Under the pieces are notes generated by a model. That model ran no database searches, was not told the DNA's origin, and saw only the letters and a program-made list of their open reading frames with translations. Shown here in pieces: positions 8,260 to 10,767 of a stretch of DNA of 64,000 nt. A program made the translations under genes and the position numbers. Source of the stretch: Sulfurospirillum diekertiae (GTDB lineage Bacteria; Campylobacterota; Campylobacteria; Campylobacterales; Sulfurospirillaceae); assembly GCF_011769985.2 (NCBI RefSeq), contig NZ_CP039734.2:2046001-2110000 (forward strand), in the 5' to 3' direction. The stretch's first letter is position 1. Each line of letters starts with the position of its first letter.

Positions 8260-9819
8260 TTAAATACTCTCTTGCGTATTGCTACGAACGGTTCTAAGGT
8301 GCTCTTTCATTGACATGTAACTGTTAAGTGCTCCAATATACGCTTTAGCCGTTGCTAGCATGGTATCAACACTTAAACCATGTCCCATAATCGCAGGTTT
8401 ACTTTCATCAAATACTACTTTAACGAGCACCCTTGCCATTGCGTCTTTACCCTGAGAAACCGCGTCCACTTTGTAGTCTTTTAGCTCGCCACTCACACCA
8501 CAAACACGATCAATGACTTTAAAGATCGCATCCATCGTTCCATTCCCAATAGCAGCGTCAGTAATCTCTTTTCCATTATGTAAAATGGTCACAGCAGCAC
8601 TCGGAACACCTCCTGGTGCGCAATCAGAAAGTTGCAAACGAAGTAAGTCAAAAATTTGAGGAATTTTGGTAATTTCCTCAGCAACAAGTGCACGTAAATC
8701 ATCATCAAAAATCTCTTTTTTCTGATCTGCTAAGATTTTAAAACGATCAAATGCCTCATTGATCTCTTCGTCTTTAAGCTCATAGCCTAATGTTTGAAGT
8801 TTGTCTTTAAACGCATGCCTACCAGAATGTTTACCAAGAACAATCGAGTTTTTGTCAAGACCAATGTCTTTGGCACTCATAATCTCATAGGTTTGGGTGT
8901 GTTTCAACACGCCATCTTGGTGAATGCCACTCTCATGTGAAAAGGCATTCTTACCCACAATAGCTTTATTGGGTTGCGGCTCAATGCCTGTTACGGATGA
9001 AACCAATTTACTCGTAGGGTAAATCTCTTTAATATTAATGTTTGTATCATATCCATTGAAATGATCTTTACGTGTACGAAGTGCCATAACAATTTCTTCT
9101 AATGCCGCATTCCCTGCACGCTCACCTAAGCCGTTTATCGTACATTCTACTTGACGTGCACCATTTTCAATACACGCCAATGAGTTCGCTACAGCAAGTC
9201 CTAGATCATTATGATTATGCACAGAGATGATAGCGCGATCTCCTACAAAATCATGTAATGACTTAATAATAGCCCCCATTTCCGTTGGTAAACGATATCC
9301 TACGGTATCGGGGATATTTAAGGTACTGGCTCCTGCATTAATGACAGCGTCTAAAATCTCTTTCAGAAAGCTCACATCACTACGTCCGGCATCTTCACAG
9401 CTAAACTCCACATCATCACAAAATGTTTTAGCATACTGTACGGACTCAACTGCCTTTTTGATAACTTGATCCGGTGTCATTTTAAGTTTATATTCCATAT
9501 GAATAGAGCTTGTTGCAATAAAGGTATGAATTCTGTTTAATTTTGCTTTTGCAACAGCCTCACCAGCAGCCTTAATATCACGATCTAATGCCCGCGCAAG
9601 GGAACAGATTCGACTTTTAGTGACAGCCTCACTAATACGAGCAATTGCATCAAAATCTCCCGGACTAGCCGCGGCAAAACCTGCTTCTATAACATCAACG
9701 CCCAATTTTTGTAACTGCAATGCAATCTGAATTTTCTCTTCAGTGTTCATTGAAGCACCCGGACTTTGTTCACCATCACGTAAGGTGGTATCAAAAATTA
9801 TAATTTTAGTGTCATTCAT
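8260..9819 (-). CDS. leuA: 2-isopropylmalate synthase
   Basis: 519 residues; condenses acetyl-CoA with 2-oxoisovalerate, the first committed step of leucine synthesis. The HMG-CoA lyase-like barrel shows [12 protein letters not shown] near residue 10 and the metal-binding [13 protein letters not shown] near residue 200. The C-terminal third is the LeuA allosteric domain ([15 protein letters not shown]), which binds leucine for feedback inhibition. Length is normal. A 31-codon leucine-rich reading frame lies upstream at 9872-9967 and may be a regulatory leader. No leuBCD genes follow, so this leuA stands alone; transcription ends at the palindrome shared with the convergent gene. Confidence 0.96.
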
Positions 9820-9871
9820 AGGTTGTATTCCTTGTTACATTAATTTAAAAAGTTAAAAAATAAAAATGGAA

Positions 9872-9967
9872 TTAGAAGAAGAGGAGTTTTTGCAGGAGAG
9901 CGTTTTTGATCTCAATTTTTGGTAAAACTTTGATCGATTTCATGATGCCAATATCAACGCTATTCAT
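9872..9967 (-). CDS. Probable leucine leader peptide upstream of leuA
   Basis: A 31-residue frame starting at ATG 9967 with an excellent AAGGAG site 4 bases upstream, ending in NALLQKLLFF and a TAA. Four Leu codons (CTC, CTG, CTC, CTC) and two Phe codons cluster in the last nine positions. Its stop is 52 bases before the leuA start. Leader peptides rich in the end-product amino acid are a known device for attenuating leu operons, and position and composition fit. I could not find a strong terminator hairpin between it and leuA; only weak pairing (GAGA with TCTC) and T-rich stretches are present. The mechanism could therefore be translational. It might also be a chance frame, though the ribosome site argues against that. 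Confidence 0.55.
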   Translation of the reverse strand: MNSVDIGIMKSIKVLPKIEIKNALLQKLLFF

Positions 9968-10005
9968 CGCTTCTCCTTGATTCAAAATACCTTGAGCTAA
10001 AATAG

Positions 10006-10027
10006 ATATGCCCAAAAGTGGGCATAT
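10006..10027 (-). terminator. Hairpin at the pssA stop codon
   Basis: Perfect inverted repeat with 9-base arms, ATATGCCCA and TGGGCATAT, and a 4-base loop. On the minus strand it starts within the pssA stop codon and is followed by CTATTTTAGC, a short U-rich run. It probably ends the pssA transcript. A TATAAT on the same strand at 10026-10031 overlaps it and could instead start a leuA leader transcript carrying this hairpin at its 5' end. Confidence 0.45.
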
Positions 10028-10767
10028 TATACTAAATTTTTATGCGATTTTGCAACGATGAAATTATAACATCCTCGAATAAGTCCATAGGCTAAATAAG
10101 CAGTCACTAAACTGGTCCCTGCTTCAATCGGATAGATATACAAAAAAGAAAAAACAATGACTAAATAAACAAGTATTTTAATGATATGACCTTTTTTCAT
10201 ATCGATCTTTTTAAAGCTTGGATAACGAATATTACTCACCATTAAAAAAGAAAGTACACCGATGCCAATGAGCATAATCCACTCAAATCCTTGAAAAAAT
10301 ACATGCTCTCGATAAAATAAAATCCACATGGAAACAACAACTGCCGCCGTAGGAATAGGAACGCCAATAAAAACAGAAGGTTCTGACACGCCAATCATCA
10401 CATTAAAACGTGCTAACCTAATAGCACCAAAAACAACATACATCGCACATAACAAAGAGCCAAGCTTTCCATACATATGACCTACACTAAAGTAAAAGAG
10501 CATTGCAGGAGCGACACCAAAAGCCACAATGTCGGCTAAAGAATCAAACTCAGCACCAAATTTACTGGTCGCATTCGTCATACGTGCAACACGTCCATCA
10601 AGACCGTCAAAAATCAAAGAGAGTAAAATATAAACAGCTGCCTTTTCAAATTGTCCATTCGTTGAAGATATAATACTAATAACCCCTAAAAAAGCACTCG
10701 CTGCTGTAAAAAGATTGGGAAAAACATACATCAATTGGAGTTTATTATTACTGCTATTATTTGTCAT
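10027..10767 (-). CDS. pssA: CDP-diacylglycerol-serine O-phosphatidyltransferase
   Basis: 246 residues; makes phosphatidylserine from CDP-diacylglycerol and serine at the inner membrane. The CDP-alcohol phosphotransferase signature is complete at residues 57-79: DGRVAR, eight residues, GAEFDSLAD. About seven hydrophobic segments fit the integral-membrane type. It overlaps the upstream Psd-like gene by 11 bases, so the two are co-translated. In the order ftsH, psd-like, pssA it matches Campylobacter jejuni from memory (Cj1116c-Cj1114c). It is the last gene of the cheY-prmA-ftsH run. Confidence 0.94.
   Translation of the reverse strand: MTNNSSNNKLQLMYVFPNLFTAASAFLGVISIISSTNGQFEKAAVYILLSLIFDGLDGRVARMTNATSKFGAEFDSLADIVAFGVAPAMLFYFSVGHMYGKLGSLLCAMYVVFGAIRLARFNVMIGVSEPSVFIGVPIPTAAVVVSMWILFYREHVFFQGFEWIMLIGIGVLSFLMVSNIRYPSFKKIDMKKGHIIKILVYLVIVFSFLYIYPIEAGTSLVTAYLAYGLIRGCYNFIVAKSHKNLV

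Follow-up and report, generated by a model that had tools for sequence, protein, structure and literature searches.

We analyzed a 64,000-nucleotide (nt) stretch of the Sulfurospirillum diekertiae genome (contig NZ_CP039734.2, positions 2,046,001 to 2,110,000; hereafter the window, with positions counted from its first letter) and, within it, leuL, a short open reading frame (ORF) on the minus strand (9872..9967) that precedes leuA. We favor, with moderate confidence, the reading that leuL is a leucine-sensing leader in which ribosomes stalled at Leu codons gate Rho, so that transcription into leuA would be controlled without an intrinsic terminator. This reading builds on features of the DNA itself, namely the ORF, its conservation, its pairing potential, a region with more C than G (C>G) and the absence of an intrinsic terminator. 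The LeuL family is in print (Porcelli et al. 2013, PMC3847290; Froschauer et al. 2025, PMC11955535), and the present leader is therefore a member of a known family.

The leuL frame and its relatives

The leader encodes 31 amino acids (MNSVDIGIMKSIKVLPKIEIKNALLQKLLFF; translated from 9967 to 9872, where it ends in a stop) and has homologues upstream of leuA. Its Shine-Dalgarno (SD) sequence, AAGGAG (9973..9978, minus strand), stands 5 nt from the ATG, and AGGAG is invariant in 21 aligned members of the genus. The gene for 2-isopropylmalate synthase, leuA (519 amino acids; 8260..9819, minus), starts at 9819, 52 nt downstream of the leader stop, with an SD of its own, AAGGA (9829..9833, minus). 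This leuA shows 100% identity to that of S. diekertiae. A preliminary description of the window had proposed a 31-codon frame with a good ribosome site before leuA, ending in four Leu and two Phe codons. Both the frame and its tail are real: the last codons read CTC CTG CAA AAA CTC CTC TTC TTC TAA, with the second Leu pair, CTC CTC, at codons 28-29 (9881..9886, minus). Conservation in relatives, which that description suggested as a check, extends to the Leu codons and not to the Phe codons, at which relatives carry SL, CF, FS or LF.

Of the 24 small ORFs in the window that follow an SD, leuL alone has at least four Leu among its last nine residues, and 0.2 Leu-tailed, SD-preceded ORFs per strand are expected from Markov-shuffled sequence. 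The Leu codons of the tail (CTC three times, CTG once) are rare ones, based on background codon usage in the window, where CTC accounts for 13.4% and CTG for 6.5% of Leu codons. Across leader tails, 195 out of 400 Leu codons are CTC and 95 are CTG. Among the eight loci examined, the leucine transfer RNA (tRNA) anticodons encoded in the genome are UAA, UAG, GAG and CAA, with no CAG.

The leader was found in all 23 Sulfurospirillum loci with readable upstream DNA. When the genus and the phylum are taken together, a Leu-tailed, SD-preceded ORF precedes leuA in 88 loci. At E 0.01, a profile of the type with the LPKIE motif finds matches in 63 out of 298 genomes of the phylum, the majority at 1e-9 or better, and in 24 out of 24 further genomes checked the match lies directly upstream of leuA on the same strand. 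Leaders of the Sulfurovum type have a different body (TIFTKD.. then LLLL).

LeuL was described upstream of leuABCD in C. jejuni, with rare Leu codons; orthologues were reported from most Epsilonproteobacteria having leucine genes, the C. jejuni leuL RNA has a 3' end shortly past the stop codon, and termination/antitermination was proposed in general terms (PMC3847290). The start of LeuL translation in C. jejuni was detected by ribosome profiling (PMC11955535). The 9872..9967 frame is a member of this family: it is an ORF in the range of 20-35 amino acids with a ribosome-binding site before a leucine gene, it has several C-terminal Leu codons, and these are rare. It is the same element as the one in PMC3847290, with the difference that C. 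jejuni leuL precedes leuABCD whereas here leuA stands alone.

Conservation of the peptide and of the Leu codons

The core LPKIEIKN (codons 15-22; 9902..9925, minus) is conserved at the amino-acid level, with a ratio of nonsynonymous to synonymous polymorphism (pN/pS) of 0.00 for Sulfurospirillum and of 0.03 for 40 distinct leaders across families. In the body of LPKIE-family leaders silent sites vary freely whereas amino acids do not, and 13 representative sequences all share G7, K10, K13, L15-E19, K21 and N22. On this comparison selection at the amino-acid level extends beyond the Leu codons to the peptide body. Because LPKIEIKN adjoins the Leu codons, a ribosome stalled at them would hold it in its tunnel; amino-acid conservation in such a tunnel-proximal segment is a mark of arrest peptides. 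Sulfurovum-type bodies are less constrained (pN/pS about 0.4-0.5) and retain the Leu run.

The codons AAC GCT CTC CTG (codons 22-25; 9893..9904, minus), which include the first two Leu codons, are nucleotide-invariant in the genus. Their Ala-Leu-Leu part has a synonymous polymorphism (pS) of 0.000, that is, its silent sites are fixed too. Among 61 distinct leaders of the LPKIE family, the Asn codon is AAC in 58, compared with 40% of Asn codons in leuA genes, and the second Leu codon is CTG in 56. This CTG is retained even in loci where the pairing with the leader SD described below is lost, and it may therefore be important for decoding. Taken as a pattern of sequence conservation, the peptide and the Leu codons appear to serve as control parts.

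Terminators, base composition and pairing

No terminator-like site was found between the leader ATG and leuA at the window locus, in agreement with the preliminary description, which had noted the lack of a strong terminator hairpin. Between the leader ATG and leuA +60, such sites occur in 4 out of 79 loci compared with 2.2 expected, which is chance level, and in none of the Sulfurospirillum loci. No Rfam leader family was matched at gathering or relaxed thresholds, the only hit being a chance match to a plant microRNA. The combination that defines a classical intrinsic attenuator, a terminator hairpin with a U-run between the leader and the first gene, is missing. Both the locus itself and the comparison across the phylum support a leader that lacks an intrinsic attenuator. 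In Campylobacter-type leaders (L104, L187-L191) a small hairpin built from the last codons and the stop (GCTACTTAGGTAGC) covers the stop codon; this hairpin is among the few terminator-like matches.

The sole terminator-like site found at the window locus is at the 5' end of the transcript (10027..10006). It corresponds to a 5'-proximal hairpin (10006..10027, minus) next to a putative leader promoter with the -10 box TATAAT (10026..10031, minus), inside which lies the pssA stop TAA. The box and a conserved upstream tract are located upstream of the leader in 21 out of 21 aligned genus loci, which opposes a transcript start downstream of the frame, an arrangement that the preliminary description had named as speaking against its proposal. 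A further copy of TATAAT is found inside leuA. The 5' hairpin just past the promoter keeps its structure while its sequence changes (L006-L019, L022, L024 and L026; GAGGTAAAG..CTTTACCTC, GAAGAAGTGCG..CGCTCTTCTTC and others) and is absent from L020 and L021; it may stabilize the RNA or represent the end of pssA.

The end of the leader and the spacer behind it are rich in C and poor in G. A stretch of 78 nt (9832..9909, minus) contains 17 C and 3 G and is a candidate Rho-loading site. In Sulfurospirillum, the last 12 leader codons are 40% C and 6% G, and the leuL-leuA spacer is 18% C and 1.7% G. The best 78-nt C>G window ranks in the top 2% of its own locus in 82 out of 88 loci, and at most one G occurs in the 40 nt past the leader stop in 42 out of 83 loci, compared with 4-6% of other gene starts. 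A pattern resembling a Rho utilization (rut) site is present in 44 out of 88 loci compared with a background of 9%. Rho is encoded in the genome.

The Leu codons can also pair with the leader's own SD. An RNAalifold consensus of the 21 genus leaders has one main stem, in which ACGCUCUCCU of codons 22-25 pairs with the SD AAGGAG and with AGCGU of codons 3-4. In the window, the predicted partners of the anti-SD ACGCTCTCCT (9894..9903, minus), based on this consensus and on duplex tests, are the leader SD (9977-9972) and the AGCGT of codons 3-4 (9960-9957). Over 83 distinct leaders the duplex of SD and tail has -11.8 kcal/mol compared with -6.8 under synonymous recoding; the window leader itself has -13.4 compared with -6.9, and 59 of the 83 are at or below the 5% level of this null. 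Folded as a single sequence, the window leader gives a weak signal (z -1.29). Changes on both sides of the stem are matched in L071/L074 (AGGAGGATAGA with TCTATCCTCCT) and in L070 (AGGAGCGTACC with GGTATGCTCCT), and are also compensatory in L077. As judged from these comparisons, the pairing is real in Sulfurospirillum and much of the Sulfurovum group, and it is not defining for LeuL.

Several points weigh against a control built on this pairing and on Rho. When the null is limited to the Leu codons used in leaders, the gain is smaller (-11.8 compared with -10.6 kcal/mol). That a leader's own SD and own tail outperform 5000 out of 5000 swapped SDs speaks for the pairing, but related sequences inflate this test. 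Covariation in strict register is modest (pairing 13/1000 shuffles, double changes 218/1000) because the pairing core never varies, and only the flanks and the L070, L071 and L077 cases are informative. In Campylobacter-type and Nitratiruptor-type loci the pairing is no better than the synonymous null, being absent or weak, and it is therefore not essential to the mechanism group-wide. In Sulfurospirillum, folding predicts that a ribosome on the first Leu codon does not free the leader SD (accessibility 0.11 to 0.14) and that one on the second Leu pair frees it only in part (0.11 to 0.35); re-loading of ribosomes is therefore the least certain part of the model. The composition of the Leu tail and spacer is typical of Rho loading, though it is no proof of a rut site.

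A pairing of this kind common to all LeuL leaders was considered and dropped, as Campylobacter-type loci failed. Two further features concern the spacer between leuL and leuA. In L037 and L042 it exceeds 150 nt and holds an additional small ORF (MNNYRA..). In Sulfurovum-type loci (L061, L067, L082, L085, L089, L092 and others) a block, TTAGTTTCTAATTAACCCCTTTTTGGGTAGAATTAGACAATTT, lies about 40-60 nt before leuA; it is conserved in 21 loci and absent from Sulfurospirillum. The block looks like either a weak hairpin or a second promoter (TTTTTGGGTAAAAT) enclosed by the inverted repeat TCTAAT/ATTAGA.

Proposed mechanism and its alternatives

From these sequence features we infer stalling, Rho action, a response to leucine and a role of the peptide in the tunnel, as follows. 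When charged leucine tRNA is scarce, ribosomes would stall at the CTC/CTG Leu codons, probably assisted by LPKIEIKN as the nascent chain inside the tunnel. By stalling, a ribosome would shield the C-rich, G-poor end of the leader, so that Rho could not bind and leuA would be transcribed. A ribosome on the Leu codons would also tend to keep the leader SD free, and more ribosomes could load. When leucine is plentiful, the ribosome would depart at the stop, and the Leu codons would fold back onto the leader SD and block new initiation. On the naked leader, Rho would then terminate transcription shortly past the leader. A more far-reaching version, which we hold only tentatively, treats LeuL as a leucine-responsive arrest peptide: LPKIEIKN and the Leu codons would stall the ribosome jointly, the Leu codons acting as anti-SD would make translation of the leader a one-shot event, and together they would, in much of the Campylobacterota, gate the entry of Rho to leuA.

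The preliminary description had left the mechanism between ribosome stalling that controls leuA translation, and Rho. The part concerning Rho is strengthened by the C>G, G-poor Leu tail and spacer of nearly all loci and by the presence of Rho in the genome, whereas the part concerning translation is weakened. If translation were attenuated, a stalled ribosome would open a structure hiding the leuA SD, and leucine would control translation of leuA, not its transcription. The spacer of about 50 nt in Sulfurospirillum is short enough for this, and masking the Leu codons raises the predicted leuA SD accessibility in L012 (0.31 to 0.66) and L104 (0.73 to 0.92). However, the RNAalifold consensus of the genus leaders contains no conserved helix with the leuA SD, whose predicted mean accessibility rises only from 0.35 on the naked leader to 0.38-0.44 once a ribosome occupies the Leu codons or the stop. 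The Leu tail also prefers the leader SD, its duplex with the leuA SD having only -4.3 kcal/mol, and the spacer is poorly conserved in sequence and length. Because a ribosome hardly alters leuA SD accessibility and no conserved helix exists, translation attenuation is the weaker of the two mechanisms; control via the leuA SD is not supported by the predictions, and we regard it as unlikely. Pairing of the Leu tail with the leuA SD was rejected given the weak duplex, the lack of a conserved helix and the nearly unchanged accessibility.

Slightly less probable still is that LeuL is primarily an arrest peptide. Its conserved GxxK..IK.LPKIE[IT][KR]N chain would then halt the ribosome on sensing leucine itself or some other signal, and the Leu codons would do no more than mark the place of the stall. 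The invariant amino acids of the body, with free synonymous change in several families, and its position, some 1-9 residues ahead of the first Leu codon, would fit. Sulfurovum-type leaders, however, keep the Leu run despite different and less constrained bodies, and the Leu codons are therefore the shared element. Transcription attenuation of the classical kind, with an antiterminator competing against an intrinsic terminator, is improbable. In the E. coli-type leu attenuator a leader ORF with rare Leu codons precedes the leucine genes; leuL resembles it in that ORF, and Sulfurospirillum has a U-rich tract past the leader stop, but leuL has no terminator hairpin, antiterminator or Rfam match at gathering score. 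The 40 nt before the tract are nearly free of G, no hairpin precedes it and terminator-like sites stay at chance level, so that the anatomy contradicts this explanation. Very improbable, finally, is a small trans-acting LeuL protein whose position is merely operonic. The amino-acid-level conservation of the body is what one would expect of it, but leuL lies directly before leuA in 24 out of 24 genomes, is present in one copy in the genome, and keeps its Leu run while the surrounding tail composition drifts, with Leu codons constrained at the nucleotide level.

Gating of Rho by a stalled ribosome has parallels in other bacteria. In CruR of Bordetella a ribosome stalled on an upstream ORF keeps Rho off, and a role of Rho was shown (PMC9426467). 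The leuL locus shares with it the upstream ORF, a peptide motif conserved near the C terminus and a C>G bubble extending from the end of the ORF into the intergenic region, in a genome that encodes Rho; CruR differs in sensing copper via CXXC and in being a far longer protein, and here the role of Rho is inferred. E. coli toiL-topAI likewise ties upstream-ORF stalling to Rho-dependent termination, but it senses antibiotics, and its first effect is on how the downstream gene is translated (PMC12121999). In the actinobacterial LEU element a Leu-codon run before leuA also pairs with an SD box, within a pseudoknot whose base stem overlaps the leuA translation initiation site (PMC1262725). Here the predicted partner of the Leu codons is instead the SD of the leader itself (-11.8 compared with -4.3 kcal/mol for the leuA SD); no pseudoknot was found and none was sought. 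The account of LeuL in PMC3847290, in its accessible part, does not include the terminator-less C>G region, the way the Leu codons pair with the SD of the leader, or the selection on LPKIEIKN. These additions to the published LeuL come from the present comparative sequence analysis.

Amino-acid attenuators are textbook switches based on intrinsic terminators, and in this case an entire phylum, to which major gut pathogens belong, seems to regulate leucine synthesis without one. The body of the leader is conserved as though it functions inside the ribosome, and in many members the codons look chosen to shut the leader's own ribosome site. The published reports found here on LeuL of C. jejuni and its relatives leave the mechanism untested. 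The predictions made here for LeuL, if borne out, would show how such organisms attenuate transcription without hairpins.
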